Source of the DNA: Lotus japonicus
Taxonomy: Eukaryota > Streptophyta > Magnoliopsida > Fabales > Fabaceae
DNA length: 64,000 bases
Assembly: GCF_012489685.1 (NCBI RefSeq)
Contig: NC_080043.1
Coordinates: 67,201,920-67,265,919 of the forward strand
Reading direction: 5' to 3'
Made by a program: the position numbers and the translations under genes. This document shows, piece by piece, positions 1-45,249 of the stretch. The notes under the pieces were generated by a model that worked only from the letters and a program-made list of their open reading frames with translations, was not told where the DNA came from and did no database searches. Within the stretch, counting starts at the first letter, position 1, and each line of letters opens with the position of its first letter.

Positions 1-418
1 GTGTTTACTATTAGCTTTTTAGAAGCAAATCTCTTGTAAACAATTCTTTGATAAACAGTTTGTTTAGTTCCTTTAGGAGATCAAGGTTGATCGGATCCTA
101 GAGAAGACTAAGAGAGTGAATCTTAGTGTGAGCTAAGTCAGTGTAATTGTTAGTCACTTGTAGGTTTCAAGTGCAGTTGTAACTCTTACCTGATTAGTGG
201 ATTGCCTTCATTCTAAGAAGGAAGAAATCACCTTAACGGGTGGACTGGAGTAGCTTGAGTGATTTATCAAGTGAACCAGGATAAAATCCTTGTGTGCTTT
301 TCTATCTCTTATCTTTAGCACTTAAGTTCTCGAAAGATTTGTCAAAATCTTTAAGGTGGAAGTTTTGTTCTGAAAACGTTATTCAAACCCCCCCTTTCTA
401 CCGTTTTTCATACCTTCA
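1..418 (+). repeat. 5' LTR of element 1, 3'-terminal part
   Basis: The window opens inside this LTR. Its first base corresponds to 10877 in the 3' LTR. It ends in CA at 417-418, just before the primer-binding site. Adding the 790 bases present only in the 3' copy gives a full LTR of about 1.2 kb. Confidence 0.93.
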
Positions 419-420
419 AT

Positions 421-432
421 TGGTATCAGAGC
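421..432 (+). other. Primer-binding site of element 1
   Basis: TGGTATCAGAGC, complementary to the 3' end of initiator tRNA-Met, is the usual minus-strand primer site of plant Ty1/copia elements. It begins two bases after the LTR end. The same site recurs at 23080 in element 2. Confidence 0.92.
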
Positions 433-490
433 GCAAGTTCTGATTACCACACCTAACAGTGTTCAGTGATCCGGGCCGGTGTGAAAAACA

Positions 491-2401
491 ATGGCTGCCA
501 CCACCAGTGAAACTCAAAGAGATGGTTACAACGCAAAGCCTCCTATGTTCGATGGTCAAAGGTTCGAATATTGGAAAGATAGACTGGAAAGTTTCTTTCT
601 GGGTTTCGATGCAGATCTCTGGGATATTATTGTGGATGGCTATGAGCGTCCAGTTGATGCAGATGGCAAGAAGATCCCAAGGTCAGAGATGACTGCAGAT
701 CAAAAGAAGCTGTACTCACAACATCACAAAGCAAGAGCAATTCTTCTAAGTGCTATTTCCTATGAGGAGTACCAGAAGATTACAGATCGTGAGTTTGCTA
801 AAGGCATTTTTGAATCTCTGAAGATGTCTCATGAAGGAAACAAGAAAGTCAAAGAATCAAAGGCTTTGTCTTTGATCCAAAAGTATGAATCCTTCATCAT
901 GGAGCCAAATGAGTCAATTGAAGAAATGTTCTCCAGATTTCAATTGCTTGTAGCTGGCATACGACCTCTCAACAAGAGCTACACAACAAAAGATCATGTC
1001 ATAAGGGTCATCAGGTGTCTTCCTGAAAGTTGGATGCCTTTGGTGACTTCAATAGAGCTCACAAGAGACGTTGAGAATATGAGTTTAGAAGAACTCATCA
1101 GCATTTTGAAATGCCATGAGCTGAAGCGCTCAGAGATGCAAGATCTGAGGAAAAAGTCCATAGCCTTGAAATCCAAATCTGAAAAGGCTAAGGTTGAGAA
1201 GTCAAAAGCTCTTCAAGCTGAAGAAGAAGAATCTGAAGAAGCATCAGAAGATTCTGATGAAGATGAGCTGACTCTGATCTCCAAGAGACTCAACCGCATC
1301 TGGAAGCACAGGCAGAGCAAGTTCAAAGGCTCTGGAAAGGCAAAAGGAAAGTATGAGTCCTCAGGCCAGAAGAAGTCTTCAATCAAGGAAGTCACATGTT
1401 TTGAGTGCAAAGAATCTGGGCACTACAAAAGTGATTGTCCAAAGTTGAAGAAAGACAAGAAGCCAAAGAAGCACTTCAAGACGAAGAAGAGTCTGATGGT
1501 GACATTTGATGAATCAGAGTCAGAGGATGTTGACTCTGATGGTGAAGTCCAAGGACTCATGGCCATTGTCAAAGACAAAGGAGCAGAGTCAAAGGAAGCT
1601 GTTGACTCTGACTCAGAATCAGAAGGAGATCCTAACTCAGACGATGAAAATGAGGTATTCTCTTCTTTCTCTACCTCTGAACTGAAACATGCTTTGTCTG
1701 ATATCATGGATAAGTATAACTCTTTATTGTCTAAGCATAAAAAGTTGAAAAAGAACTTATCTGCTGTTTCCAAGACTCCTTCTGAACATGAGAAAATTAT
1801 TTCTGATTTGAAAAATGAAAATCATGCTTTGGTAAATTCTAACTCTGTGCTTAAGAACCAGATTGCTAAGTTAGAAGAAATTGTTGCCTGTGATGCCTCT
1901 GATTGTAGAAATGAATCTAAGTATGAAAAGTCTTTTCAAAGATTCCTAGCTAAAAGCGTGGATAGAAGCTTAATGGCTTCAATGATCTATGGCGTAAGCA
2001 GAAATGGAATGCATGGCATTGGCTATTCTAAACCAATTAGAAATGAGCCCTCTGTGTCTAAAGCTAAATCTTTATATGAATGCTTTGTTCCCTCTGGTAC
2101 CATATTGCCTGATCTTGTACCTGCTAAAGTTGCTAAAAACCCTCTTAAAAAGGGATCTTTCTCTATGACTAAATATCATGCAAACATTCCTTTAAAATAT
2201 TATGTTGAGACACCCAAGGTGATCAGAACCTCTGGGGTAACTAACAAAAGAGGACCCAGAAAGTGGGTACCTAAGGACAAGATTATCTATGTTGCAGATA
2301 TCCTTGATAGCTCCACTGAAACACCAATCATGGTATCTGGACAGTGGATGCTCGCGTCACATGACGGGAGAAAAGCGTATGTTCCGAGAGCTGAAACTTA
2401 A
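491..2401 (+). CDS. gag: Gag polyprotein of SIRE element 1
   Basis: This 636-residue capsid/nucleocapsid polyprotein starts at the first ATG after the PBS leader. The N-terminal half matches the copia gag domain (retrotran_gag/UBN2 type), beginning with a [12 protein letters not shown] segment. Around residues 308-321 it carries a zinc knuckle, [14 protein letters not shown] (CX2CX4HX4C), which packages RNA. Lysine- and Ser/Glu/Asp-rich stretches flank the knuckle, and a coiled-coil-like segment lies near residues 400-480. The last 30 or so codons overlap pol in another frame. The family normally joins gag to pol as a fusion, so this junction needs recoding. Element 2 has the same frame relation but with several gag stops. 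Confidence 0.93.
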
Positions 2402-5393
2402 GCCTGGAGGCGAAGTTGGCTTCGGAGGAAATGAAAAGGGTAAAATTATTGGTACTGGCACTATTTGTGTAGATAGTAGTCCATGCATTGATAATGTTTT
2501 ATTGGTAGACGGCTTAACACATAACTTATTGTCTATAAGTCAATTAGCTGACAAGGGTTATGATGTTATATTCAATCAAAAGTCCTGCCGGGCTGTAAGT
2601 CAGATCGATGGCTCTGTTCTGTTTAACAGCAAGAGGAAGAACAACATTTATAAGATCAGATTATCTGAGTTGGAGGCTCAGAATGTGAAGTGCCTTCTGT
2701 CTGTTAATGAAGAGCAGTGGGTATGGCATAGACGGTTAGGGCATGCCAGTATGAGAAAGATTTCTCAGCTGAGCAAGCTAAACCTTGTCAGGGGCTTACC
2801 CAATCTGAAGTTCGCTTCAGACGCTCTTTGTGAAGCATGTCAGAAAGGCAAATTCACAAAAGTCCCTTTCAAGGCAAAGAATGTTGTCTCAACCTCAAGG
2901 CCGTTGGAACTTCTGCATATAGACCTTTTTGGACCAGTGAAAACTGAGTCTATAGGTGGCAAGAGATATGGGATGGTTATCGTTGATGACTATAGCCGCT
3001 GGACATGGGTAAAGTTTCTAACCCGCAAGGATGAGTCTCATGCTGTGTTCTCTACCTTCATTGCTCAAGTGCAAAACGAGAAGGCTTGTAGGATTGTGCG
3101 TGTCAGAAGTGACCATGGTGGAGAGTTTGAGAATGACAAGTTTGAGAGTCTGTTTGATTCCTATGGAATTGCACATGATTTCTCTTGTCCCAGAACTCCT
3201 CAACAAAATGGTGTTGTTGAGAGGAAGAACAGAACTCTTCAGGAGATGGCTAGAACCATGCTCCAAGAAACTGGCATGGCTAAGCACTTTTGGGCAGAGG
3301 CAGTAAATACAGCATGTTACATTCAGAACAGAATCTCTGTGAGACCAATTCTGAATAAGACTCCTTATGAATTGTGGAAGAACATAAAACCCAACATTTC
3401 TTATTTTCATCCTTTTGGCTGTGTTTGTTATGTTCTCAATACTAAGGATAGATTGCATAAATTTGATGCTAAGTCTTCTAAGTGTCTATTACTTGGTTAT
3501 TCTGATAGATCTAAAGGTTTTAGATTTTATAATACTGATGCCAAGACTATTGAAGAATCTATTCATGTTAGATTTGATGATAAGCTTGACTCTGACCAGT
3601 CAAAACTAGTTGAAAAGTTTGCAGATTTAAGCATTAATGTTTCTGACAAAGGCAAAGCTCCAGAGGAAGTTGAGCCAGAGGAAGATGAACCAGAGGAAGA
3701 AGCTGGTCCCTCTAACTCACAAACTCTGAAGAAGAGCAGAATCACTGCAGCTCACCCTAAGGAATTGATTCTGGGCAACAAAGATGAACCAGTCAGAACC
3801 AGATCTGCCTTCAGACCCTCTGAAGAGACCTTGCTGAGTCTGAAAGGATTGGTGTCCTTAATTGAACCCAAGTCCATAGATGAAGCTCTTCAGGACAAGG
3901 ATTGGATTCTGGCCATGGAAGAAGAATTAAATCAATTCTCCAAGAACGATGTTTGGAGCTTAGTGAAGAAGCCTGAGAATGTCCATGTTATTGGAACGAA
4001 ATGGGTATTCAGAAACAAGCTAAATGAGAAAGGAGATGTAGTCAGAAACAAGGCAAGGCTAGTTGCTCAAGGCTACAGCCAGCAGGAAGGAATAGACTAC
4101 ACTGAAACATTTGCTCCGGTAGCAAGACTGGAGGCAATCAGACTGTTGATCTCCTTCTCAGTAAATCACAACATAGTTCTACATCAGATGGACGTAAAGA
4201 GTGCCTTCCTAAATGGTTATATTTCAGAGGAAGTCTATGTTCATCAACCCCCAAGTTTTGAAGATGAGAAGAAACCAGACCATGTGTTCAAATTGAAGAA
4301 ATCACTCTATGGTCTGAAGCAAGCTCCCAGAGCATGGTATGAGAGACTTAGCTCATTCCTTCTGGAGAATGAGTTTGTAAGGGGTAAAGTAGATACAACT
4401 CTTTTTTGCAAGACTTATAAAGATGATATCTTAATTGTGCAAATTTATGTTGATGATATTATATTTGGTTCTGCTAATCAATCTCTACGCAAAGAATTTT
4501 CTGAGATGATGCAGGCTGAATTTGAGATGAGTATGATGGGAGAATTAAAGTACTTTCTGGGAATACAAGTTGATCAAACACCAGAAGGAACATATATCCA
4601 TCAGAGCAAGTACACTAAAGAACTTCTGAAGAAGTTCAATATGCTGGAATCTACAGTGGCCAAGACTCCAATGCATCCTACATGCATTTTGGAGAAAGAA
4701 GATAAAAGTGGTAAAGTATGTCAGAAGCTCTATCGTGGAATGATAGGTTCACTTCTATACTTAACTGCATCTAGGCCAGACATATTATTTAGTGTTCACT
4801 TATGTGCTCGTTTCCAATCAGATCCAAGGGAAACCCACTTAACTGCTGTTAAGAGGATCCTAAGGTATCTGAAAGGCACCACTAACCTTGGCTTGATGTA
4901 TAAGAAAACATCAGAGTATAAGCTTTCAGGTTATTGTGATGCTGATTATGCTGGAGATAGAACAGAGAGAAAAAGTACTTCTGGAAATTGTCAATTTCTG
5001 GGAAGCAATCTAGTCTCATGGGCAAGCAAGAGGCAATCAACCATTGCACTATCAACTGCAGAGGCAGAATATATCTCAGCAGCAATATGCAGCACTCAGA
5101 TGCTCTGGATGAAACATCAGCTGGAGGATTATCAGATCCTTGAGAGCAATATCCCAATCTATTGTGATAACACTGCTGCAATCTCATTGAGTAAGAATCC
5201 TATCTTGCATTCAAGGGCAAAGCACATTGAGGTAAAGTATCACTTTATTAGAGATTATGTACAGAAGGGCGTACTTCTTCTGAAGTTTGTTGATACTGAC
5301 CATCAATGGGCAGATATCTTTACAAAGCCCTTAGCAGAGGATAAATTTAATTTTATTCTGAAAAATCTAAACATGGACTTTTGTCCAGAGTGA
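2289..5393 (+). CDS. pol: Pol polyprotein (protease, integrase, RT, RNase H) of SIRE element 1
   Basis: An intact open frame of 1034 codons counted from an internal ATG. The frame is open back to 2241, and pol is probably made as a gag-pol fusion. Aspartic protease: DSG near residue 18 inside [16 protein letters not shown]-pre-integrase/zinc region: about 145-190. Integrase acidic residues: D in HIDLFGP (about 211), D in RSDHGGEF (about 275), E in QNGVVERKN (about 310). Reverse transcriptase: from about 540, with [24 protein letters not shown] and the catalytic YVDD near 721. RNase H: from about 880 with CDADYAGD and STAEAEY. Order and motifs are typical of Ty1/copia. No stop or frameshift is visible. 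It lies +1 relative to gag. Confidence 0.95.
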
Positions 5394-5836
5394 AGATGGA
5401 TCAGAACCTCTGACTATGATACTTCTTGATCAGAAGATGTCTAGTCCAGAAGGTAACTCAATCAGAGTGTGTGTGCCCACTGGTACTGACTCTGAAGCTG
5501 AGACAACAACACGTGTGTCAGAATTTCTGATGCATAATTCCTTGTGCCCGTGTGACAGTCTGTTATGATTGCGTGTAGATATGCTTATCTCCTGTGTGTG
5601 ATTGTGTATTTTACTGTTACTATCTATCTTTAATTTTCAACCGTTGATCTTAAAGTGCTTTTTGAATCAACAACGGTTATTTGATAAAACCCACTATACA
5701 CACACGTTCTCGTTCACTTCCGGTTTTCACTCTCGCACTCTCTGCTTTTCAAAACCGCCTCTTTCTTGATTTCTCTCTCGATCTCTCTTCATCCTTCAAA
5801 CTTCATCTTCTACCTCAAACCTTCAACCTCTTCAAA
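5394..5836 (+). other. Pol-ORF3 spacer of element 1
   Basis: This 443-bp stretch separates pol from ORF3 and holds no gene. It is pyrimidine-rich towards its end. The equivalent spacer in element 2 is about the same length. The spacer could hold a splice acceptor for an ORF3 mRNA, but none can be proven from sequence. Confidence 0.5.
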
Positions 5837-8695
5837 ATGGTGAGACAAACCAGAAGATCTACTGCAGATGCACCTCAGTTCCCTCACATGGTAGTTGGTC
5901 TAGCAACGGGTCAAAGGGGCTCTGAGAATCCGACACAAGAACAAGTTCAAGCTCAAGAGCAGATCGTTCCAATTGCAGAACGGGGCTGTGCCGTTCACTG
6001 CGTATTTGCTCCTGAGGAACTTCAAGTCCTGGCAGAATGGAGATTCGACCTCGACAACCTGGCTGCAAATGGGTATGATCTTCGTCCTGAAGTCCAAGCT
6101 CAAGGTTGGGGAAACTACTTCAACCGACTTCGAGGACCGGCGTATGAGAAGTTGGTCAAGGAATTCTGGAAGCACGCCGACTGCGATGATACTCAAGTGG
6201 TATCTCATATTCTTGGCAGGAAGATCATCATCACGGAGAAGTCATTCGTGAATCTGCTAGGTGCAGACACTGCTTATGGGTTTCGATTCCAATTCACTGA
6301 GTCGAAGCTGAAACCCAACACCAAAGACAAAACCAACCAGGCCCTGTACACCACTTTCAAACCGGGCAAGACAAGTTACAAGGTGATGGACCTTCACCCC
6401 AAACTCAGGATTTGGCACAAGATCCTGCTCAACTGCATCAATCAGAGACCGAAGGGCAGTTCCCCAGATTACATCAACTTCAACCAGAAGGCGATGCTGT
6501 TTTTCATTCAAGACAAGAGGAAGATCTGCCTTCCCTACTTCCTGTTCTCCTACTTGAAGGAGTGTATCCGGAAGTCTAGGACTACTGCCTCAATCAAGTC
6601 AGCAATCAAGTATATCCCCTTTGGGAGACTGCTGTCTGATCTCTTCATTGAGAGTGGCCTCATTCAAGACCTGATCAATGCTGGTTGCACAGAGGACTTG
6701 AGCACAATTGTCAGCGATGTCTTCACTGCCAACTCTCTGAAGAAGATGGGTTTGGTCCAGAAGAAGATTGCTCCTGCTCGTGAAGACACATCCTCTGAGA
6801 TCAGAAGCAGACGGATGCCTCTGAATGACTACCCACTGTGGACTCAGGCAGACAATCCTGAAGCCATCCGGTGCTATGTCGAAGACCTAAGGGCTCAAGG
6901 CTTCGAAATTGATCTTGATGATTTCTTCAGCAGACTGCCGCCAGCTCCAGAGTTTCCTTCTCCTCCCAAGAAGAAAGCTCAGAGGAAGATGGTTCTGGAA
7001 GAATCCTCTGAAGAATCTGATGTCCCTCTGGTCAAGAAGACGAAGAGAAAGCCTGATGATGGTGATGATAGTGATAGTGAGGATGGTCCTCCTAAGAAGA
7101 AGCAGAAGAAGGTCAGAATCGTGGTGAAGCCTACTCGGGTGGAACCAGCTGCTGAAGTAGTCAGAAGGACTGAACCTCCTGCCAGAGTGACTAGATCATC
7201 AGCACATTCAAGTAAGCCTGCACTTGCTTCTGATGATGATTTGAATTTATTTGATGCACTCCCTATTTCTGCTATGCTCAAACACTCCTCAAATCCCCTC
7301 ACTCCTATTCCTGAATCCCAGCCAGCCGCACAAACCACCACTCCACCACATTCCCCAAGATCTTCCTTCTTTCAACCTTCCCCTACTGAAGCACCTCTCT
7401 GGAATTTGCTTCAGAACCAACCCTCTAGGTCAGAAGATCCAACCTCTCTCATTACCATTCCATACGACCCATTATCTTCTGAACCCATCATCCATGACCA
7501 ACCCGAGCCAAACCAAACAGAACCACAACCCAGAACGTCTGATCACTCTGTTCCCAGAGCATCAGAACGTCCTGCTGTCAGAACCACGGATACAGGCTCT
7601 TCAACAGCCTTTACACCTGTATCCTTCCCAATCAATGTTGTTGATTCTTCTCCCTCCAATAACTCTGAATCTATTAGAAAATTCATGGAGGTTAGAAAAG
7701 AAAAGGTGTCTACCTTAGAGGAATATTACCTTACCTGTCCAAGCCCTAGGAGATATCCTGGCCCTAGACCTGAACGTCTAGTTGACCCAGATGAACCTAT
7801 CTTGGCCAATCCTATCCAAGAGGCAGACCCCTTAGTTCAACAAGCTCACCCTGTCCCTGACCAACAAGAGCCCATTCAACCAGACCCTGAACCCGAACAA
7901 TCAGTGTCTAACCAATCCTCGGTTAGATCACCTCACCCTCTGGTTGAAACTTCAGACCCTCACCGTGGAACCTCTGAACCCAATGCTCCCATGATTAACA
8001 TTGGTTCTCCACAAGGTGCCTCTGAAGCTCATAGCAGCAATCACCCAGCCTCTCCTGAAACCAACCTCTCCATCATTCCCTATACTCACCTCCAACCCAC
8101 ATCTCTCTCTGAGTGCATCAATATTTTCTATCATGAAGCCTCCTTGAGGCTCCGCAATGTGCACGGTCAGACTGACCTCAGTGAGAATGCTGAAAGTGTG
8201 GCTGATGAGTGGAACAATCTGAGCACTTGGCTAGTGGCTCAGTTTCCAATTATGATGCAGCTCCTGCATGCAGAGGGAAGTCAGAGGATTGAGGCTGCCA
8301 AGCAAAGGTTTGCTAGAAGGGTGGCTCTTCATGAACTAGAACAGAGAAATAAGCTTCTTGAAGCTATTGAAGAAGCCAAGAGAAAGAAAGAACAAGCAGA
8401 AGAAGCTGCACGTCAAGCAGCAGCTCAAGCTGAACAAGCCAGACTTGAGGCAGAGCGACTTGAAGCTGAGGCTGAAGCTCTTAGATGCCAAGCACTTGCA
8501 CCAGTTGTGTTTACTCCTGCTGCTTCTGCTTCCATTCCAGATCCTCAAGCTGCTCAGAATGTTCCTTCCAGTTCTACTCAGACAAGCTCATCCAGACTCG
8601 ACATCATGGAACAACGTCTTGACACTCATGAATCCATGCTGATTGAGATGAAGCACATGATGATGGAACTTCTGCGACGCACTGACAAACCTTAG
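5837..8695 (+). CDS. Sirevirus ORF3 ('env-like') protein of element 1
   Basis: A 952-residue protein. I chose the ATG at 5837 because element 2 has the matching ATG (30550) and similarity is strongest from here, although the frame is open back to 5681. Residues about 55-320 form a conserved globular region (LHPKLRIWHKILL, KAMLFFIQDKRKIC) resembling the 'plant transposon protein' domain. Lysine clusters near residues 377 and 417 alternate with acidic runs and look like nuclear-localisation signals. A Pro/Ser/Thr-rich middle follows, then an Ala/Glu/Lys/Arg coiled coil at about 815-885. I see no convincing signal peptide or membrane span, although this ORF is usually called env-like in SIRE elements. 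Function is unknown. Confidence 0.85.
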   Translation: MVRQTRRSTADAPQFPHMVVGLATGQRGSENPTQEQVQAQEQIVPIAERGCAVHCVFAPEELQVLAEWRFDLDNLAANGYDLRPEVQAQGWGNYFNRLRGPAYEKLVKEFWKHADCDDTQVVSHILGRKIIITEKSFVNLLGADTAYGFRFQFTESKLKPNTKDKTNQALYTTFKPGKTSYKVMDLHPKLRIWHKILLNCINQRPKGSSPDYINFNQKAMLFFIQDKRKICLPYFLFSYLKECIRKSRTTASIKSAIKYIPFGRLLSDLFIESGLIQDLINAGCTEDLSTIVSDVFTANSLKKMGLVQKKIAPAREDTSSEIRSRRMPLNDYPLWTQADNPEAIRCYVEDLRAQGFEIDLDDFFSRLPPAPEFPSPPKKKAQRKMVLEESSEESDVPLVKKTKRKPDDGDDSDSEDGPPKKKQKKVRIVVKPTRVEPAAEVVRRTEPPARVTRSSAHSSKPALASDDDLNLFDALPISAMLKHSSNPLTPIPESQPAAQTTTPPHSPRSSFFQPSPTEAPLWNLLQNQPSRSEDPTSLITIPYDPLSSEPIIHDQPEPNQTEPQPRTSDHSVPRASERPAVRTTDTGSSTAFTPVSFPINVVDSSPSNNSESIRKFMEVRKEKVSTLEEYYLTCPSPRRYPGPRPERLVDPDEPILANPIQEADPLVQQAHPVPDQQEPIQPDPEPEQSVSNQSSVRSPHPLVETSDPHRGTSEPNAPMINIGSPQGASEAHSSNHPASPETNLSIIPYTHLQPTSLSECINIFYHEASLRLRNVHGQTDLSENAESVADEWNNLSTWLVAQFPIMMQLLHAEGSQRIEAAKQRFARRVALHELEQRNKLLEAIEEAKRKKEQAEEAARQAAAQAEQARLEAERLEAEAEALRCQALAPVVFTPAASASIPDPQAAQNVPSSSTQTSSSRLDIMEQRLDTHESMLIEMKHMMMELLRRTDKP

Positions 8696-8844
8696 TTTTA
8701 GGATCTCTTCTTTTTCTTCTTTTTCGTTACCTTTGTTTTCCTTTGTTAAACTCTGTTTCTTTTTATTTATTTATTCTCTTTTGTCCGTTTGTGATTATAT
8801 ATGCATAACTATATACTTATGTCACATATGTTTGCTAAACTCAT

Positions 8845-8850
8845 TTTATT
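8845..8850 (-). terminator. Possible poly(A) signal for the antisense ORF
   Basis: AATAAA on the minus strand, about 46 bases past the antisense stop codon. The site is not conserved as an exact hexamer in element 2, which has only AT-rich sequence there. Confidence 0.35.
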
Positions 8851-8895
8851 CATAATTGTTTTGTGTTTACATCATATTTCTTTCCATCATATAAT

Positions 8896-9288
8896 CTAGA
8901 ATGGAGGATCTCTCCTCATTCTTCTGCACTCCTGGCGCTGCTCTGACCTATCCTTCTCCAGACGCTCCAGTACATGCTGGATGTTGCTGAGCCTGATCTT
9001 TAGCTCATCCCTCTCCAGAATCTCTTCTGAAGTCTTGAGCTTCTCTTCCAAACTCTCTTTCTCTTCCAGCAGCTTGAGTTCAAGCCGGCTGAGTTCTTGC
9101 ACCTCCTCCACGAAGGCAAGAAATTCCTTCAGGTCTCTCTCCAACTCTGGACGCAGGTCCTCTTCCAGCAGTGTCTGTGTCAGCTCCGCGATGGTAGTTG
9201 CATCCTCTGGATGCCTGATGTTCAGGAACAAGTCCTCTTCAAAGGCCTTCTTCCTCAGCTCTTCTAGTGCTACGTTGTATGATGCCAT
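8896..9288 (-). CDS. Conserved antisense coiled-coil ORF in SIRE element 1
   Basis: I recognise no family for this 130-residue protein. It lies antisense between ORF3 and the 3' LTR. It starts MASYNVALEELRKKAF and ends in an Arg-rich tail, QRQECRRMRRDPPF. Most of it is Glu/Lys/Leu-rich with heptad-like spacing, so a coiled coil is likely from about residue 40 to 115. Element 2 has a same-length counterpart at 33674-34066. By hand, 93 of 130 residues match with no indel, and in the first 36 codons 13 of 23 base differences fall at third positions of this frame. A TATATAAA box lies 51 bases upstream of its ATG, and AATAAA lies just downstream of its stop. This supports a real antisense gene. 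Transcription is not shown. Confidence 0.72.
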   Translation of the reverse strand: MASYNVALEELRKKAFEEDLFLNIRHPEDATTIAELTQTLLEEDLRPELERDLKEFLAFVEEVQELSRLELKLLEEKESLEEKLKTSEEILERDELKIRLSNIQHVLERLEKDRSEQRQECRRMRRDPPF

Positions 9289-9338
9289 TTTTCACTACAA
9301 ATTGTTCACGGTGTGAAGCTTACCTTTCTCTCCAACGC

Positions 9339-9346
9339 TTTATATA
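9339..9346 (-). promoter_or_regulatory. TATA box for the antisense ORF of element 1
   Basis: On the minus strand this reads TATATAAA, 51 bases upstream of the antisense ATG at 9288. This is normal spacing for a plant TATA box with a short leader. Element 2 has the identical octamer at 34120-34127, 54 bases from its ATG, although the surrounding sequence has diverged. Confidence 0.6.
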
Positions 9347-10072
9347 GGCTTCACTTTCTCTCTGAAAGTTAATGCTCTTACAGTTTCTCGAGGTTAAGTT
9401 CTTGGTAACTGACCCTTCTATTTACTCCCTTGACCGGTGGTAAACGTACTTCTCTTGCATTAACTCCTTTATCTATTTCGCCTACCTCTGATTCTTACAT
9501 CGTTTTCATTTTCTTTAAACTTAGACCTTCTCTAAGGGGAGTACCTTGTACTTCAAGCTAAGTTTTTCACACCCCAAGCTTTTTGCTTATGACAAAAAGG
9601 GGGAGTAAACCCAGTTTTTGATGTGTAAGATGTGTTAGTGTGATTTATTTTTCTTTTGGAGATTTTAAGAGTTCCACCTTCATGACCATAGATGTGTCAC
9701 TGGGCAAATACAAGGAATACATTTCACTTATTCTGAAGTGATTCTAAGTTGACTCTGATACCCAAGACTCTGATACCTTGTCCATGACTCTGATTACTTA
9801 TGCGCTCTGATTATTCGTTTTTCATCTATGTCATAAGTTTTTCACTCTGAACTCTTATATCATTTAGCTCAGAATCTAGACTTTACTAACGTTTTCATCA
9901 AGTATTAGATTCAGGGGGAGCTAAGCTCAGAATTAAGCAGTGACTTGAATTCAGAATGAGCAAGATAAACTATTCACATCAGGATAAGTCTTATTATATA
10001 TCTCTAAACTCTGAGTGAATTCAGTTTAATGTTTAAGAATTGTTCATCAAAAATCTTAGTTTTGTCATCATC
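9347..10072 (+). other. Non-coding pre-LTR region with extra polypurine tracts
   Basis: There is no gene here. It contains a full second copy of the polypurine tract (9594-9605, identical to the one abutting the LTR) and partial copies near 9533 and 9912-9920 (CAGGGGGAG). It also has a cluster of CTCTGA hexamers at about 9735-10015. Element 2 shows the same arrangement, which fits the multi-PPT organisation reported for Sireviruses. Confidence 0.7.
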
Positions 10073-10085
10073 AAAAAGGGGGAGA
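10073..10085 (+). other. Polypurine tract of element 1
   Basis: AAAAAGGGGGAGA lies immediately before the 3' LTR and primes plus-strand DNA synthesis in LTR retrotransposons. The same tract sits at 34837-34849 in element 2. Confidence 0.9.
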
Positions 10086-10086
10086 T

Positions 10087-11165
10087 TGTAAGATCAAGTT
10101 TTGATCTAGTAGTACAACTCTATGTTTTGATGATTACAAGTTAACCTTTTGATATGAACAATTGTGGTACTCTAACGTGTTTTTCTGAGTGTGCTATTTA
10201 CAGGCTCTGAACTCAACTCAATCTCACACAAATCAGAAGCACTGTGTATAAAGGGTAACCCAAGCAACGCTTTCGCATTCACCATGTTCAGTATGAACAG
10301 TGGAAAAGCTTCAGAAGTTCTGAAGCAATACAAACTCTGATGTGGACTCAGTCGCTAGAAGCTCTGAAGATCCAGAAGTTCTGATAACCAAGAAACACTG
10401 AAGGTTCAGATGTTCTGATGGTGTAGAAGACTCTGAAGATCCAGAAGCTGAATAGTGGAAACTCTGAAGTCCAGAAGCAAGAAACTCTGAAGGCCATGTT
10501 CTTCCCTCTGAGTTCAGAATCAGAAGATACAATGGTCAGAGGATCTGTGCTTTCCCTCTGACTCTGATCAACCGGCTTCACAAGTTCCAATATGAAGTAT
10601 TCCCCTGATCAGAAGTCTCCTAGGTTAAAAGGTCAAGTCGCTATCCAAGTACAAAAGCAAGTGTACCTTCCTGACGACCTACCTAACGTTCTCAGCCACA
10701 GCAGAAGCTGGATTTTCCAGAACTGCCCTCCAACGGTAGCATTTCCCATGCAACGCTCAACCCTATCCTTGGAGTATATATAGAGGCTGAAGATTGAAAG
10801 AAGCGGCTAGAAAGAACACATATACGCGCAAGACATATTCAAAATATTCTAAGCTTTCTTTCATCTGAAATTCATTGTGTTTACTATTAGCTTTTTAGAA
10901 GCAAATCTCTTGTAAACAATTCTTTGATAAACAGTTTGTTTAGTTCCTTTAGGAGATCAAGGTTGATCGGATCCTAGAGAAGACTAAGAGAGTGAATCTT
11001 AGTGTGAGCTAAGTCAGTGTAATTGTTAGTCACTTGTAGGTTTCAAGTGCAGTTGTAACTCTTACCTGATTAGTGGATTGCCTTCATTCTAAGAAGGAAG
11101 AAATCACCTTAACGGGTGACTGGAGTAGCTTGAGTGATTTATCAAGTGAACCAGGATAAAATCCT
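10087..11165 (+). repeat. 3' LTR of element 1, truncated by assembly gap
   Basis: It starts TGTAAGATCAAG right after the polypurine tract and matches the window's first 290 bases from 10877 onward. The last roughly 130 bases are lost in the N gap. U3 carries many CTCTGA-type hexamers and short direct repeats. Confidence 0.93.
10775..10782 (+). promoter_or_regulatory. LTR promoter TATA box, element 1
   Basis: TATATATA within U3. The aligned position in element 2 (35542-35549) reads TATAAATA. It probably sets the retrotransposon transcript start some 30 bases downstream. Confidence 0.55.
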
Positions 11166-13387: not shown

Positions 13388-14111
13388 TAAAGTATTTAAA
13401 ACACAAAAAAATCCAACAATTATCATTCACAATGGTTAAATGAGTCCAATTGAACTATGAGATCAGAATTTCAATTCTTATTTGCCGCACTCTTTCCTTT
13501 GACCTTCATCGTATCGTCATCCATCTATCGAGTTAGAACAAAATCAATGTGAATGTTTTAGATTGAGAGGCTTTAGTAGCACGTATTGGAATGATTATTA
13601 AGGATGCAAATGCAATTCAATTTGGATGAAAGAGATTCCTTCGCTTTGTTGCCTTTTCTCATTCTAATGTATCCGCTTCTAGTCCCGCTTTTTTTCTTTA
13701 TGTATAAATATCCAGTATTAGGTAATCATTTGGATGCCGTCAGATTCAGGATTTAGTCACAGTTAAGACTCATCATCCCTCCTTCAGAGTGTATTGTGTG
13801 AGGATCGAACTCGAAAGTTCTTCTCACACACTCAACCTATATTGCCAACTCAGTTTTCCCTCTTGCGTTTCTAAGCCCGCTTTGATTTAATTGAGTACAT
13901 ATTTCCTTTTAAAAACAATCCAAATCAGTACACGAAAAAACAATTCAATTCAGTACACAACAAAGAAAAAAAACAATAAAACTTTATAAAACTATCATGC
14001 CCACTCATAGTTTCTCTGGTTCAAGTGTTCAACATTTGCAGATAGATAGTCATCGCGAATATGACCACCGCCACCACTACCTGATTTCAAATTGTCCACT
14101 TGACGCACCAC
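13388..14111. other. Upstream region of the transporter gene
   Basis: About 720 bp without a gene. It is AT-rich with a C-rich segment just before the TATA box. I see no further regulatory element that I could defend. Confidence 0.5.
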
Positions 14112-14118
14112 TATATAA
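14112..14118 (+). promoter_or_regulatory. TATA box of the transporter gene
   Basis: TATATAA, 66 bases before the ATG at 14184. An earlier in-frame ATG at 14100 lies upstream of this box and so is unlikely to be in the mRNA. The box therefore decides the start. Confidence 0.65.
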
Positions 14119-14183
14119 CCACTCTAACCCTTCACCTTTCTCTCCATCAGTATCCCAACCAAGACACACATAAACTCACTCAA

Positions 14184-15809
14184 ATGGAGCCTGCAGCTTC
14201 AGTTCAAACAACAGCACCTTCCCAATCTCCCTCCTCAGCAGCAGAGCATGAGAGAAAACTGATGCAGTCATGGGATGACATGGTTGAAAAAAGCTTAGGA
14301 AACTTCGGCTGGATGGAGTTCCTGCAAGCAGTGCTTGTTGCTGTTGCAATGTTCTTCGATGCACAACAATCTTTCATCAGTATCTACACAGATAACTACC
14401 CAACATGGCACTGTAACACAAACTCAAACTCAAACACCACCACATGTTCCTCTACCTCTGACATCTGCAAAATCCCAAGATCTTCTTGGTCATGGGACTC
14501 ACACCCTTCCATGACCATTATTTCCCACTGGGGGCTTGAATGTGCAAGCACCTTCATCACTGGTTTACCCCAATCTGCTTTTTTCATAGGTTGCCTTCTA
14601 GGCTCCTCTGTTCTCGCAGCTTTAGCTGATTCCGCTCTAGGCAGAAAAAACATGCTTGTTTTCTCTTGTGTGTCTATGTCAATCACTTCAATCCTCATTA
14701 TTTTCTCCCCCAACATCTGGGTCTACTCTGCTTTGAAATTCCTAATCGGTTTCTGGCGTTCCTCCATTGGAACCTGTGTTCTAGTCCTTCTCACAGAAAA
14801 TGTGAGTGCAGAGTGGAGGTTCAGGGTGGGGATTGTGGAGTATTTCACCTTTACAATGGGGTATATGTCTCTACCAGGCATAGCCTATGTCAACAGAAGC
14901 CTCTCATGGAGATCTCTGTACCTCTGTACTTCAGTCCCTGCTCTGTTTTACTCTGTTCTCGCTTACTTCTTCATCACAGAATCACCCAGATGGCTTCTGA
15001 TGCAGGGTAGAGTCAAAGAAGCCATGAAAATCCTCAAAGGGGTTACCTTATCAGAACACAACGCTAACTTCATAGAAACCTTGAAACCCAAAGAAAAGGT
15101 TTCAATCTTTCAACTCTACTCTTCAGTAGGTGAGCTTTTCAAGAAACGCTGGGCACTGACAAGAATGGTGGCGGTGATGGTGCTAGGAATCGGTGTCGGC
15201 ATGGTGTATTTTGGGATGCCATTAGCGGTGGGGAACTTGGGGTTCAACATTTACTTGGCTGTTGTGTTCAGTGCATTGATGGAGTTTCCTTCTTGCATAG
15301 CCACCTATTTCTTGGAAAACTACAGAAGAAAGCCATCGATTTTTGTTTTCTCCTTGATGGGTGGGATTTGCTGTGTGATGTGTGCTGTTGTTGGTGATAA
15401 ATCACCGGGTGCCAAAGTGGGGCTAGCAATGGTGTCGTTTTTTGGTGCTTGCACGGCTTACAATGTTTTCCTCATCTACATTATTGAGTTGTTCCCCACA
15501 TGTGTGAGGAACACCACAACCTCATTGGTGAGACAAGCTATCACATTTGGTTGCATTTTCAGTCCTTTTTTGATATCTGCTGGGAGGAGAAACAACATCT
15601 TTTCTTATGGGGTGTTTGGGATTGTGATAATGTTATCCAATTTGACTTTGTTTGGGTTGCCTGAGACTATGGGGATTGTGCTTTGTGATACTATGAATCA
15701 GCAGGAGAAGAAGGAAACGTATTTGAGTAAATCTGAGACAAAGCAAGTTGCTATGTGTGAGAGTGAGACAATGGATCAACAAGAGAAGATTGGAGACTTG
15801 CCCGTGTGA
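14184..15809 (+). CDS. Organic cation/carnitine transporter (OCT family, MFS)
   Basis: An intact 541-residue intronless gene. It belongs to the plant OCT branch of the major facilitator superfamily (SLC22-like), which moves carnitine, polyamines or other organic cations across plasma or vacuolar membranes. The substrate here is inferred. A soluble N-tail precedes TM1 (about 41-60) and a Cys/Ser/Thr-rich first loop. The MFS motif ALADSALGRKNM lies at about 143-154, TESPRWLL near 266, and ELFPTCVRNTTTS near 434-446. Length and intronless structure suit Arabidopsis OCT genes. The closing tail (QQEKKETYLSKSE) also marks the decayed copies at 16158 and 19167. Which OCT number it corresponds to cannot be said. 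Confidence 0.92.
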   Translation: MEPAASVQTTAPSQSPSSAAEHERKLMQSWDDMVEKSLGNFGWMEFLQAVLVAVAMFFDAQQSFISIYTDNYPTWHCNTNSNSNTTTCSSTSDICKIPRSSWSWDSHPSMTIISHWGLECASTFITGLPQSAFFIGCLLGSSVLAALADSALGRKNMLVFSCVSMSITSILIIFSPNIWVYSALKFLIGFWRSSIGTCVLVLLTENVSAEWRFRVGIVEYFTFTMGYMSLPGIAYVNRSLSWRSLYLCTSVPALFYSVLAYFFITESPRWLLMQGRVKEAMKILKGVTLSEHNANFIETLKPKEKVSIFQLYSSVGELFKKRWALTRMVAVMVLGIGVGMVYFGMPLAVGNLGFNIYLAVVFSALMEFPSCIATYFLENYRRKPSIFVFSLMGGICCVMCAVVGDKSPGAKVGLAMVSFFGACTAYNVFLIYIIELFPTCVRNTTTSLVRQAITFGCIFSPFLISAGRRNNIFSYGVFGIVIMLSNLTLFGLPETMGIVLCDTMNQQEKKETYLSKSETKQVAMCESETMDQQEKIGDLPV

Positions 15810-19127: not shown

Positions 19128-19704
19128 ATTTGAGTCAATCAGAGACTAAGCAAGTTGCTATGTGTGAGAGTGATGGAGTTCACTTCTGGCATAGCCACCT
19201 ATTTCTTGGAAAACTACAGAAGAAAGCCATCGATTATTGTTTTCTCCTTGTTGGGTGGGATTTGCTGTGTGAAGTGTGTTGTTGTTGGTGATAAATCATC
19301 GGGTGCTAAAGTGGGGCTAGCAATGGTGTCGTTTTTTGGTGCTTGCACGGCTTACAATGTGTTCTTGATTTACATTATTAAGTTGTTCTCCACATGTGTG
19401 AGGAACACCACAACCTCATTGGTGAGGCAAGCAATCACATTTGGTTGCATTTTCAGTCCTTTTTTTTATATCTGCTGGGAGGAAAAACTACATCTTTTCT
19501 TATCGGGTGTTTGAGATAGTGAGAATGTTATCCAATTTGACTTTGTTTGGGTTGCCTGAGATTATGGGGACTGTGCTATGTGATACCATGGATCAGCAAG
19601 AGAAGAAGGAAACATATTTGAGTAAATCAGAGACCAAACATGTTGCTATGTGTGAGAGTGAGGCCATGGATGAACAACAGAAGATTGGAGACTTGCCTGT
19701 GTGA
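19128..19704 (+). pseudogene. Transporter pseudogene, partial copy 3
   Basis: From 19167 it aligns to the intact gene from about 15278 (the MEFPSC segment) to the stop. An expanded T-run near 19461 shifts the frame, so the C-terminal tail continues in another frame to 19704. Just before it, 19128-19166 is a stray piece of the gene's extreme 3' end (TTTGAGTCAATCAGAGAC) fused directly to the mid-gene start. This marks a duplication junction. The 3' flank matches that of copy 2. Confidence 0.85.
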
Positions 19705-20434
19705 TCAAACCCGAGACAGTTTCATCCAAACTCAATTTGATAGATTTTAGTAGTACTCATTTGATGTAGTATCTTGTGTCTGTTACCTGCTAATAATGTT
19801 AATGGGTGATTCCACATTAATTTTTGGAGTAACTCTTGTATCAATGTTCACTTAAATAAAAGTAAACATTTCCTCATGTAATAAAAAAAAATAGATGCAA
19901 ACAATTTTATTATAATTGATCTTCCGTTATTTTTTCACCTTTATTTATCTCTTCTTTTTTAATCAAATCATTTATTACATCTTTACTTTTACTCTCTTTT
20001 CTTCATATTTCTTGTCTCTCCAACTCATAACGGCGTTTGACGGATGTGAAATGGCGTCAGAGATTGCATGTTTATAAGGAAAGAAGGGAAGGGGAGAGAT
20101 CTGAGAAGATTTCTAGGTCACAGATGTGTGTTTATGTACTTGCAGGATTTCATTGTTGATTTTATGATGAGCAAATTGATATGGCTTCAGATGGAGGGGG
20201 TGTTTGCAAGGTTGGATGAGGGTGGAAAATGAGAAGGGAAGAGAACAAGGATACTATGCAAGATGCAATGGGGGAGATTAATCACGCCAGAGGTTGCAAA
20301 TATTTATCAGAGCCATTATTTTAAGATAAACACCATTAAAATAAAAAGATAAATACACACACACACAAACACGCACACGCACGCACACACACACACACAC
20401 ACCATTTGTAACCTAATATTCTATTATATTCTCA

Positions 20435-30107: not shown

Positions 30108-30549
30108 AGATGGATCAGAACCTCTGACTATGATGCTTCTTTATCAGAATATGTCTAGTTCAGAAGGTAACTCCATCAGAGTTTAAGTACCCATTGGTGC
30201 TCACTCTGAAGCTGAGACAGTAAACGTGTGTCAGTAGCTATGATACATCGTTCCTTGTGCCCGTGCTGACCGTCTGTCGTAATGAGTGTTGATATGCTTC
30301 TCTCCATCGTATAATATGTGTATTAACTGTTGCTATGAAGTCTTTAATTTTTAACCGTTGATTTTACTTTGCTTTTTAATAAACAACGATTATTTTCAAC
30401 AAAAAAAACCCACTATACACACACGTTCTCCATCACTTACTGCTTTACTCTCTCTCTCTCTTCGGTTTGCAAAATCCCTTAATCCCCACGATCTCTCTCT
30501 CTCTTCATTCATCCACTCTCTTCTACCCAAACCTTCAACCGCTTCAGAG

Positions 30550-33455
30550 ATGGTGAAATCTAACAGAGGTGAAACTGCGGATGGAAGAAGATTTCCAGTC
30601 ATGGAAGTAGGTCAGATTACCGGCCAATCGAGCTCTGCAACACAACGAAATCAATCAGAAGCTCAAGCTACAGGGCAGATGATTCCTCTTGCACAAAGGG
30701 GTTGTGCCGTTACGTGTGTCTACTCTCCTGATGAACTCCAGGTTCTTGCTGAATGGAGATTCGACCTTGACAACATTGCTGCAAATGGGTTTGATCTTCG
30801 TCCTGAAGTTAAAGCTCAAGGCTGGGAAGAATACTTCAACAAGCTTCGTGGTCCGGTCTACATCAAGTTGGTAAAGGAATTCTGGAAATATGCCGACTGT
30901 GATGACAATCAAGTAGTCTCATACATTGCTGGCAGAAGAATCATCATCACAGAGAAATCAATTGTTGATCTTCTGGGTGAGCACACTGGCACAAGCTACA
31001 GATTCCAACTGACGGAATCAAAGGTGAAACCCAAGACCAAAGAAGGTACCAACAAAGCTCTCTACACAAACTATAAGCCAGGCAAGAGTGACTACAAAGT
31101 AGTAGAACTTCATCCTAAGCTGAGGATCTGGCACAAGATTCTTCTTCATTGCATCAATCAGAGACCAAAGGGAAGCTCTCCAGACTACATCAACTTTTGT
31201 CAGAAAGTGATGCTCTTCTTCATTCAGGATCGCAAGAAGATCTGCATTCCCTTCTTCCTGTTCTCTTACCTCAAAGAATGCATCATAAAGTCCAGAACAT
31301 CTACTTCTCTAAAGTCTGCTATCAGATACATTCCTTTTGGAAGATTGCTCTCAGGCCTCTTCATTGAAAGCAAGTTGATAGAAGATCTGACTAAGGCAGG
31401 CTGCACAGAGGATCTGACAACTGTTGTTGGTGATGTCTTCACCTCCACATCCATGAAGAAGATGGGATTGATCAAGATAAAGGTTGCACCTGATCATGAA
31501 GATACCTCTGATGAAGTCAGACAGAGAAGAGTCCCTCTGATCAATTACCCTCTGTGGTCCCAAGCTGATGATCCAGTTGCTATATTGCACTATCTAGATG
31601 ACTTGAGGCAACAAGGTTATGAAATAGATGTGGACGAGTTCTTCAGAACCCTGCCACCAGCTCCAGAGTTTGATTCTCCTCCCAAGAAGAAGAAGAAGAG
31701 AAAAATAATTATTGAGGAATCCTCTGAAGAGTCTGATCCCTCTGACGGTGTTGATCAGAAGAAGAAGAAGAATGACAAGCTTAAGAGGAAGCATGAGGAA
31801 CCCACCAAACCAGATGCTTCATCTGATGGTGATGATGATGATGCTCCTCCACCAAAGAAGAAAAAGAAGCAAGTGAGAATAATGGAGAAGCCAACCCGTG
31901 TGGAACCAGCTGTTGAAGTAACCAGTACTGAGGCTTCTGCTAGGGTTACTCGGTCTGCAGTGAGATCATCAAGTAAGTCTGTTGTTACATTTATTGGTGA
32001 TGATTTAAGCGCATTTGATGCACTCTCAATCTCTTCACTTCTTAACCGTACTGCTACCCCACTCTCTCCCGTTCAAGAGTCTCAACCAGCTGAACAAACC
32101 ACTTCTCCACCCACTTCACCTAGATCTTCATTTTTCCAACCTTCTCATGAAGAAGCACCTCTTTGGAACATGCTTCAGACTCCTAGACCCTCTGAACCTA
32201 CCTCACCTATAACCATTCAATATAACCCACAAGCTTCTGAACCCATTATTTCAGATTCATCTCACCATGAACCCAGAACCTCTGATCACTCTGTCCTCAA
32301 AGCATCAAATCATCAGGTTCGCAAAACAACCGATACAGAAAATACAACTCGTTTTCCCTCTGTATCTTTTCCCACAAATGTTGCTAACTCCTCACCCTCA
32401 AATAACTCTGAATCCATTCGCAAATTTGATCAAATTGCGAAAGAAAAAAAGTCTGCAATTCCTGAGTACTACCATACTGTACCTAGCCCAAGGAGATACC
32501 CTGGACCTAGACCAGAACCTCTAGTTGATCCAGACCATCCAATTCCAGTAGTCCCTCTGAATGCAGCATCTCCTTCATCTCAACTCATCCAACCAGCACT
32601 TCCCTCACAACCAGAACTTGTTCAACCAGAACCTGTTCAACCAGAAAACTCCGTATCTAACCATTCCTCGGTTAGATCTCCAAAACCTGAGGTTGAAACC
32701 TCTCAGCCTAACCTTGAGATCAACACTTCAAATGTCCAAACTTTAGATGTTGGTTCTCCTCAAGGTGTTTCTGAGGCCAATAGCAGTAACCGCCCCACTT
32801 CTCCTGAAACCAATCTCTCCATGTTCCCTATACATATCTCAAACCAAACTCCCTTCTGGAGTGCATCAGCGTGTTTAATTATGAAGCATCATTAATGATT
32901 CTCAATGTGCAAGGTCACACTGACCTTAATGAGAATCCTGACTCTGTTGCTGAAGAATGGGATCATCTGAGTAATTGGATGATTGCTCAAGTTCCTATTA
33001 TGATGAGTCATCTCACAGCTGAAAGGGATCAAAGAATTGAAGCTGTCAGGCAGCGTTTCAACAGAAGAGTGGCTATGCATGAACAACAGCTAAGGGTTGA
33101 GTTACTTGAAGCTATTGAGGAAGCAAGAAAGAAGAAAGAACAAGCAGAAGAAGCTGCACTCCTAGAAGCTGAACAAATTGAAAATGCAAAGTTAGCAGCT
33201 CTGAAAGAAGCTGAAAGGCTACAGGCTGAAGCTGAAGCTCTCAGAGGTCAAGTTCTTGCACCAATGCCTTTCACAAGTGATGCTTCACAATCCAGTCAAG
33301 CTCCTCACCCTGCTCAGGATGTTCCATCTACTTCTACTCAGCCAAGTTCTTCCATACTTGATATTTTGGAACAACGTCTCAACACTCATGAGACTCTCCT
33401 GGTCAACATGAATCAAGCACTTCAAGAGCTCCTGCGTCGCACTGCCAAACCTTAG
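30550..33455 (+). pseudogene. ORF3 (env-like) pseudogene of element 2
   Basis: Homologous to 5837-8695. The first roughly 770 codons are open, with the conserved globular region, Lys-rich clusters and Pro/Ser-rich middle. A frameshift near 32850-32870 separates the coiled-coil C-terminus, which runs in another frame to 33455. Several length differences from element 1 lie in the low-complexity middle, in contrast to the indel-free antisense ORF next door. Confidence 0.88.
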
Positions 33456-33673
33456 TTTTAGGATCTCTATCGTTTTTCTTCTTTAAGTTGATAATATTTT
33501 AGCTTTTTGTTCTCTTACCTTCAAGATATTTGCTTCTATGTTTTATATCTATTTATTTCCTTAAGTGATTGTTTATTTCCTGTTTCTTATTGCATTTATC
33601 ATAACATATGTTTGAAAACTTTTTCTTTATATATATATAATCATTACATATTACATCATACATCTACATTACT

Positions 33674-34066
33674 CTAGAATGGAGGATCCTTCCTCATTCT
33701 TCTACATTCCTGGCGCTGCTCCACTCTTTCCCTCTCCAGACGATCCAATGTGTATTCTATGTTGCCGAACCTGTTGCTCAGCTCATCCTTCTCCAGACTC
33801 TCCTCCATCGTCTCCAGTTTCTTCTCCACTGCTTCCTTTTCTTCCAGCAGATTCAGCTCCAGCTGGCACAGCTCTTGAATCTCCTCCACGAAGCAGAGGA
33901 ACTCCTTCAGATCTTTCTCCAACTCTGGACTAAGATCCTCTTCTAGCAGTGTTGTGGTAAGCTCATGTATGGTTCTTGAACCATCTGGATGCCTAACATT
34001 CATGAACAAATCGTCTTCAAAGGCCTTCCTTCTGAGCTCTTCTAATGCAACCATGTATGATGCCAT
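33674..34066 (-). CDS. Conserved antisense coiled-coil ORF in element 2
   Basis: Counterpart of the antisense ORF at 8896-9288. It is again exactly 130 codons, starts MASYMVALEELRRKAF and ends QRQECRRMRKDPPF. Its body is Glu/Lys/Leu-rich with likely coiled-coil heptads. Differences include many conservative swaps (K/R, E/D, I/V, L/M), which is expected under protein-level constraint. It stays open although every sense-strand gene of element 2 is broken. A TATATAAA box lies 54 bases upstream. No known family is recognised and expression is not shown. Confidence 0.68.
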   Translation of the reverse strand: MASYMVALEELRRKAFEDDLFMNVRHPDGSRTIHELTTTLLEEDLSPELEKDLKEFLCFVEEIQELCQLELNLLEEKEAVEKKLETMEESLEKDELSNRFGNIEYTLDRLERERVEQRQECRRMRKDPPF

Positions 34067-34119
34067 TTTCTTATATTTGAAATTGATCTTGTTGTGAAGC
34101 TTATTGTGTTCCTAATCTC

Positions 34120-34127
34120 TTTATATA
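34120..34127 (-). promoter_or_regulatory. TATA box for the antisense ORF of element 2
   Basis: TATATAAA on the minus strand, matching 9339-9346 in element 1 in sequence and nearly in distance to the ATG. Confidence 0.58.
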
Positions 34128-34836
34128 AGCAGCATTTCCCTCCGGAAGTTATTGCCCTTGCAGTTTCTCGAGGATAAAATATTGGTAACTGAAGCTTCTA
34201 TTTACTCCCGTGGCCGGTGGTAAACGTTCTACACATGCATTAATTCTTTTCATTAATTCGCTATTTTTTTTTTCACTTATTCCTTCTCCATCTTTTTGAA
34301 ACTTAGACCTTCTTTAAGGGGGAGTACCTTGTACTTCAAGCTAAGTTTTTCACACCCCAAGCTTTTTGCTTATGACAAAAAGGGGGAGTACAACCCAGTT
34401 TTTGATGTGTAAGCTGTGTTTGTGATTTCCTTTTATTTTTGGAGAATTTAAGAGTTCCACCTTTATGACCATAGATGTGTCACTGGGCAAATACAAGGAA
34501 TACATTTCACTTCTTCTGAAGTGATTTTAGTTGACTCTAATACCCTCTCGTGACTCTGAATACTTATGCGCTCTGATTATTTCATTTCATCTATGTCATG
34601 CGTTTTCACTCCGAACTCTTATATTATTTAGCTCAGAATCTAGATATTACTAATGTTTCCATTAAGTCTTAGATTCAGGGGGAGCTAAGCTCAGAATCAA
34701 GCTGTGACTTGGATTCAGAATGAGCAGAGTAAACCATTCACATCAGGATAAGTCTAATTCTATATCTCTAAACTCTGAGTGAATTCAGTTTACTGTTTAA
34801 GAATTGTTCATCAAAATACTTGGTTTTGTCATCATC
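34128..34836 (+). other. Pre-LTR non-coding region of element 2
   Basis: No gene. It has the same multi-PPT layout as element 1: AAAAAGGGGGAG at 34377-34388, partial tracts near 34316 and 34677, and CTCTGA hexamers. Confidence 0.7.
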
Positions 34837-44812: not shown

Positions 44813-45249
44813 TTGTTATATTTATATTTCTTATTTTGTTTTAGTTAATATTATAATGTAATGTTTCTAATTCTTATTGAATTTTAGTTAATATTATAAT
44901 TATAATATAATGTTTTAGTTTTTATTCTAACGGTCCTCATGCTGGTGATAGTGTAATGTGTTTTTTGTTTTGTAATTTTCCAAAGAAAAAAGAAAGAAGG
45001 TTTTGAAAGTCCAGAATTCTTATTGTATTTTAATGTTTTAGTTTTTATTCTCACGAAAGAATGTTTTAGTTTTTATTCTAATTGAAAGTCCAGAATTCTT
45101 ATTGTGTTTTTTGTTTTGTAATTTTCCAAAGAAAAAAGAAAGAAAGAAGTGAATGAGCAATCGGTTTAATTGTGAATTTAATCATTCTACCTTTTTCATC
45201 ATAATCCTATACACATGCATATATAATTGCTGGCACCAGTTAACTTGCA

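Follow-up and report, generated by a model that had tools for sequence, protein, structure and literature searches.

In a 64,000-nucleotide stretch of Lotus japonicus DNA (here called the window), two SIRE-type retrotransposons, elements A and B, each carry a minus-strand open reading frame (ORF) of 130 codons situated between ORF3 and the 3' long terminal repeat (LTR). Comparison of its copies indicates that this antisense ORF (aORF) is very likely a genuine gene of the element and encodes a protein, probably an accessory one, predicted to be made independently of the LTR. An earlier note on this DNA had read it as a conserved protein-coding antisense gene of SIRE-type elements, a reading now supported by many open copies and a ratio of nonsynonymous to synonymous substitution rates (dN/dS, or omega) of about 0.2, and the coordinates confirm the placement given there for both elements. 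What the sequences show beyond that note is the conservation of a predicted promoter, a mosaic cassette to which the gene belongs, and the same gene in a second type of LTR element. Slightly favoured overall is the view that the antisense gene, comprising promoter and 130-codon ORF, is a module exchanged between LTR superfamilies, one that SIRE elements have swapped along with ORF3 and that has jumped to a gypsy-type family.

Constraint on the antisense frame and its predicted product

No indel separates the aORFs of elements A and B, whose proteins are 72% identical, in agreement with the 93 of 130 shared residues counted earlier. They differ at 92 of 393 nucleotides, distributed 22/19/51 over codon positions 1/2/3, and the enrichment of third positions among differences claimed in the earlier note holds over the whole aORF (51 of 92). 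Estimates by the NG86 method for this frame are dN 0.175 and dS 0.947, or a dN/dS of 0.18, with yardsticks from the same pair of 0.13 for gag, 0.13 for pol and 0.20 for ORF3. Four of the five other frames contain 4–8 stops per copy, with dN close to or above dS. The indels previously remarked upon in ORF3 and its neighbouring spacers are likewise found, 12 of them in the ORF3 alignment used and three in the spacer between ORF3 and aORF, which is 54.5% identical.

Larger samples give a similar picture. Among 45 copies, retained from 60 loci after removal of duplicates, wrong-length rows and rows not more than 80% identical to A/B, omega in the aORF frame was 0.14–0.21 across four distance bins and 40 copies were stop-free, while frames -1, -2, +0 and +2 yielded 0.61–2.44 and not a single stop-free copy (0/45). 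A set of 24 copies (A, B, two B-type copies and 20 more divergent ones) had a median omega of about 0.2 at dS of 0.4 or more (244 pairs) and of 0.5–0.6 at dS below 0.4 (26 pairs), six of the 276 pairs being saturated. Low omega between lineages and higher omega in close pairs point to selection across lineages and drift after insertion, as expected for a working transposon gene. A six-frame control on 23 of these copies, omitting L070 with its internal stop, returned 0.22 over 232 pairs for the aORF frame, stop-free in 23/23 (23/24 counting L070), and 1.17–1.44 for four other frames. Neither of the outcomes that the earlier note had named as telling against a gene, a minus-frame dN/dS near 1 and an ORF open in only two copies, is seen among these copies, gathered by protein similarity from one genome.

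The searched genome comprised 553.7 Mb, with six large contigs, and in each protein search the best 150 of about 4200–4400 candidates were scored; since all 150 matched every time, copy counts are lower bounds. Within these best 150, identities were 96–100% for query A, 81–100% for query B and 64–98% for the database protein P0008, ranges from which the three lists appear practically disjoint, for a rough bound of at least 450 copies. Twenty divergent copies taken across the ranks of the P0008 search included 19 with a full 129-residue ORF and one with a stop at codon 106.

In an alignment of 23 of the encoded proteins, a length of 129–130 residues is kept down to 41% identity to P0001. Invariant or nearly invariant positions include R25-H26-P27, P47-E48, F56-L57, F59-V60-E61-E62 and Q64, and, at the C-terminus, those of a CR..R..P.F pattern. 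The AlphaFold model consists of N-terminal helices followed by a long antiparallel helical hairpin (pLDDT 90.3, pTM 0.78), so that the earlier label of a coiled coil was broadly right. Transposase_28 (PF04195) is matched by none of the 23 members at E<=0.01, and a weak Pfam match to DGCcoil, seen in one of the 23, was rejected.

Protein database matches (P0002–P0008) all lie on short contigs, and collections of viral contigs, plasmids and genome contigs returned no relative. P0008 matches copies of this genome at 98% identity; it probably derives from the plant itself and was rejected as evidence from another species. The plant retrotransposon protein is also encoded on two short contigs deposited as Bradyrhizobium sp. 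TM233 (P0002 and P0005), whose assembly probably contains contaminating plant DNA of uncertain source. Papers naming Bradyrhizobium TM233 appear to concern isolates from sorghum roots.

A predicted antisense promoter in a mosaic cassette

The start ATG is kept in 58 of 60 loci, and a TATA[AT]A[AT] pattern is found 55–69 nt before it in 57 of the 60 (the window's two copies included) and again in 16 of the 20 divergent copies. In a 22-row upstream alignment, of which one row (L102) is not a promoter and another (L093) is without the outermost block, conserved blocks follow one another toward the gene in the order CGTTTACCACCGGCCAAGG, GTTACCAATAA, CCTCGAGAAACTG, GCATTAACTTC, CTTATAAATAGC and TTCACA. 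In 74 of 82 upstream rows (68 distinct, A and B of the window being entered twice and L102 scored as a miss), the TATA is separated from the A of TTCACA/TACACA by 31–33 nt; in shuffled rows the same patterns, even with a wider spacing of 24–42 nt allowed, produce the arrangement in 15 of 4100. A spacing of 31–33 nt is the geometry of the plant TATA box and transcription start. These features are consistent with a conserved core promoter ahead of the aORF, with TTCACA as the putative transcription start. It would serve RNA polymerase II and occupy about 160 bp inside the element, with TATA box, start-like motif and upstream blocks, and its predicted product is a short antisense mRNA with a leader of 23–37 nt, independent of the LTR.

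The same part of the element stands out in its history. In 200-base bins, identity between A and B is 0.81–0.97 (mostly above 0.87) over positions 401–5400, drops beyond 5400 through 0.83 and 0.81 to 0.68–0.80 over 5801–9400, and is 0.84–0.96 from 9401 on. Synonymous divergence is 0.36 in gag and 0.28 in pol as against 1.22 in ORF3 and 0.95 in the aORF, a contrast which shows that divergence of the cassette is not merely a matter of relaxed selection. A further element, L081, is 89–92% identical to A in pol protein, 36–62% in pieces of ORF3 and 44% in the aORF, with dS values of 0.60 for the reverse transcriptase and ribonuclease H part of pol (RT-RH), 3.0 for a 123-codon piece of ORF3, and saturation for the aORF. 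By the dS patterns of A/B and L081, the common ancestry of ORF3, aORF and promoter reaches further back than that of the remaining parts. The elements are thus mosaics, most simply explained by recombination of one element with another. Within the window, the mosaic stretch spans 5800–9400 in comparison with 30500–34230.

Several points weigh against the aORF being a gene read from its own promoter. Its protein has no relative of known function in Pfam or PDB, and evidence from other species is weak, the database matches being short contigs of uncertain origin. Stops, counted within the match from the result tables with frameshifts not included, interrupt 1, 23 and 33 of the best 150 matches to A, B and P0008, respectively, and 40 of the best 150 to query L080, whose list overlaps that of P0008. 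Gathering the multi-copy sets by protein similarity biases them toward low dN; the 20 divergent copies were chosen by hand and are mostly stop-free, and L070 with its stop was left out of the six-frame control. In the spacing count, the TATA pattern had been broadened to admit two variants present in the aligned rows. Protein-similarity sampling does not affect the A/B pair or its gag, pol and ORF3 yardsticks.

Attributing the constraint to the plus strand, whether to an extended or relict ORF3 or to another plus frame, with the minus frame as a shadow, is scarcely credible. The plus frame whose third positions lie opposite those of the aORF (frame +1) does show a low apparent dN/dS, 0.27 between A and B (dN 0.187, dS 0.702), 0.16–0.36 in the 45 copies and 0.44 in the 23, and in one distance bin of the 45 it nearly equals the aORF frame (0.16 vs 0.14). 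Yet it holds 1 and 2 stops in the A/B pair and is stop-free in 0/45 and 2/23 copies, as opposed to 40/45 for the minus frame, whose omega is lower in every bin but for that near-tie, and the promoter geometry agrees with the minus strand. Highly improbable, too, is that the antisense RNA instead of the protein is the functional product, feeding or blocking small-RNA silencing by pairing with the genomic RNA in its 3' part: the promoter is conserved, the transcript would face the sense 3' region, and a passage of the review PMC7264820 raises this notion for other antisense ORFs, but an RNA-only role would not maintain an omega of 0.2, a near-constant length and a conserved C-terminus. RNA-level and protein roles can coexist, and the antisense transcript may contribute at the RNA level alongside the protein.

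A second carrier family

The SIRE 3' region is found beside 17 of the 20 divergent copies. One of the 20, L080, is located in L082, a stretch without any match to SIRE pol or ORF3 and without a AGGGGGAG octamer, and having in common with the SIRE copies L083 and L081 some 515–552 bp, namely ORF and promoter. Its surroundings contain LTR-like direct repeats of 255 bp (96%, 9 kb apart), sense-strand gag and gag-pro frames and, upstream of the aORF, additional ORFs in antisense. All six of the nearest relatives of L080 tested share the L082 flank over about 550–930 bp, promoter included, and among eight further copies this flank is clear in five and weak in one (L116, two short matches), while L122 has a SIRE match of 90 bp and L118 no context match. 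Two copies, L123 (C5:32135900-32140580) and L124 (C6:16154400-16159000), possess gag and gag-pro of the L082 type at 79–85% identity, and nothing in their sense-side stretches matches the gag, pol or ORF3 of SIRE.

Above cut-off, the gag of L124 and L123 belongs to PF03732 (5.7e-08 and 3e-08), that of SIRE to PF14223, and the broken frames of L082 have no Pfam match. PF03732 is by convention a gypsy-type gag, and the family of L082, L123 and L124 is probably of Ty3-gypsy type. The label is probable rather than proven because no reverse transcriptase was found to place the family, no pol being recognised in the open frames that were looked at; in L124 the gag-pro frame and the aORF are only about 1.9 kb apart. 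This family carries two antisense genes, a longer coiled-coil-like ORF in addition to the 130-codon one. Pieces of the longer ORF match no Pfam family above cut-off; by its resemblance, it may correspond to the aORF-3R of Tat-type elements.

In a maximum-likelihood tree of 43 proteins (midpoint-rooted, L070 left out, the SIRE label being assumed for eight A-/B-type loci and for L065 and L069, with a flank match only near the promoter), the 13 second-family copies fall into one sub-cluster (98/96) inside SIRE diversity, together with L118 and L122. Most likely, then, promoter and ORF moved once, from SIRE (Ty1-copia) to the family with a gypsy-type gag and no recognised pol. This account has its difficulties: since L122, with its weak SIRE label, falls among them, a tree that sets the 13 strictly on one side is rejected (p-AU 0.0026), and the direction of transfer is inferred under a midpoint root.

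An origin in the PF03732-gag family followed by entry into SIRE elements is unlikely, though by no means negligible. Elements of that family also carry the longer antisense coiled-coil ORF, and passages of PMC7264820 and PMC11963269 describe antisense ORFs between pol and 3' LTR as typical of Tat-type gypsy elements; the midpoint-rooted tree, on the other hand, places the 13 copies as a sub-cluster within deeper SIRE diversity. Quite improbable is capture of a host gene that survives as an ordinary gene of the plant, an option raised in the earlier note that went unsupported in a non-exhaustive search. In its favour, uncharacterised plant proteins are poorly represented in the libraries used, and the genome search was not exhaustive, but the copies with classified flanks all sit in LTR elements, of two types, and Pfam and PDB hold no relative.

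The coordinates of both elements are collected in the table. The copia-type gag of A and the clustered AGGGGGAG octamers (three in A and four in B, 3' of ORF3 in the sense direction) are Sirevirus marks of the host elements, multiple octamers near the 3' LTR forming part of the Sirevirus definition in the relevant passage of PMC2829016.

Table. Coordinates in the window of the antisense genes, their predicted promoters and the associated features of elements A and B
Feature	Position	Strand	Remarks
aORF (130 codons) of element A, product predicted to form a helical hairpin	8896..9288	-	intact ATG-to-stop ORF
Predicted promoter and short 5' untranslated region of element A aORF	9289..9450	-	conserved blocks CGTTTACCACCGGYCAAGG, GTTACCAA, CCTCGAGAAACTG, TATA, TTCACA
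Putative TATA box (TATATAAA) of element A	9339..9346	-	58 nt before ATG
TTCACA motif of element A, A at 9314	9311..9317	-	32 nt from first TATA T; putative start site
aORF of element B, 130 codons	33674..34066	-	open reading frame
Predicted aORF promoter of element B	34067..34230	-	TATA ~34120-34127, 61 nt before ATG
gag of element A	491..2401	+	PF14223 copia-type (5.9e-19) plus zinc knuckle
pol frame of element A	2289..5393	+	
ORF3 (env-like) of element A, PF20167	5681..8695	+	same cassette as aORF
ORF3 of element B	30358..33455	+	two frames, 30358-32895 and 32871-33455
Sirevirus AGGGGGAG octamers of element A	9598..10084	+	sites 9598, 9913, 10077
Part of element A 3' LTR	10877..11118	+	100% identity with window 1-242

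At the far end of element B (window 35642-35995), about 110 bp beyond the matched end of the 3' LTR still match positions 243-351 of A, the stretch behind its 5' LTR, and it looks as if the LTR of B were shared or joined with the leader of another element. Elsewhere, a 569-residue ORF at 14100-15809, by eye presumably transporter-like, has a truncated copy about 3.9 kb downstream (19155-19831, 90–94% identical), and a tandem repeat with a 110-bp period occupies 45244-45625 in three copies that are 90–93% alike.

Proposed role and relation to known antisense genes

To our knowledge, no function has so far been assigned to the antisense genes of plant retrotransposons. The product here would be an all-helical protein of 129–130 residues with an accessory part in the life cycle of the element, along the lines proposed for Grande gene23 or for antisense proteins of some retroviruses, and it may serve either element type while being expressed outside LTR control. 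It may work together with ORF3, for instance by binding it, an attractive option because ORF3 and aORF travel as a cassette. The second family, however, keeps the gene without a match to ORF3 in the stretches read, suggesting a partner common to both carriers, which may be a host component or the element RNA. Were the module indeed exchanged between superfamilies, it would constitute a shared accessory factor outside LTR control, serving unrelated elements in one genome. If it works in both carriers, it would act on something common to them, such as host silencing, nuclear entry or RNA handling, and not on a lineage-specific gag or pol. A short, abundant and selected protein with a predicted start renders the question testable, with one promoter, one protein and two carriers.

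Antisense genes are also found in retroviruses, as in the case of HBZ of human T-cell leukaemia virus type 1 (HTLV-1), to which the aORF is alike in logic, both being antisense genes for an accessory protein of a reverse-transcribing element, with no sequence relation claimed. Unlike the HTLV antisense promoter, which a passage of PMC7264820 mentions as lying in the 3' LTR, the one predicted here is internal.

No Sirevirus antisense gene is described in the titles, abstract openings and passages of the Sirevirus and antisense-ORF literature, subscription works excepted, and the word 'antisense' is absent from the main text of PMC2829016 and PMC3599292. The survey PMC6317226, in the relevant passage, applied a cut-off of 250 codons, and the Retand study PMC11963269, as far as its passages tell, counted antisense ORFs of >=600 bp and considered shorter ones for the TRP28 domain, so that an aORF of 130 codons would escape the former and the main census of the latter. 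Passages of PMC4093653 on SIRE-related elements of bean, Medicago and Lotus report a sense env-like ORF. The elements of the window are like the Sireviruses known to have an env-like gene (SIRE1, LjRetro3, MtRetro3; passages of PMC4093653 and PMC2829016) in their copia-type gag, env-like ORF3 and several AGGGGGAG octamers near the 3' LTR, and unlike them as described there, with a sense extra ORF only, in the antisense gene and predicted promoter situated between ORF3 and the octamers.

The closest known counterparts are the aORF-3R genes of Ty3-gypsy Tat elements, exemplified in passages of PMC7264820, PMC4093653 and PMC11963269 by Grande gene23, RIRE2, Retand ORF4 (Transposase_28) and PvRetro13 ORF2. 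As in these, the aORF is antisense, lies between pol and 3' LTR, and is conserved across copies. It differs from them in residing, in the window, in Ty1-copia SIRE elements (element A having a copia-type gag), in its 130 codons compared with 211–939 residues in the bean table excerpted from PMC4093653, and, from Retand ORF4 in particular, in lacking the Transposase_28 match. For Grande gene23, a passage of PMC7264820 reports a promoter upstream of the gene, and an antisense transcript from an internal promoter is reported for Grande; the counterpart here is a conserved promoter sequence predicted to give such a transcript. Finally, unlike aORF-3R of the Tat elements, promoter and ORF are common to two element types.
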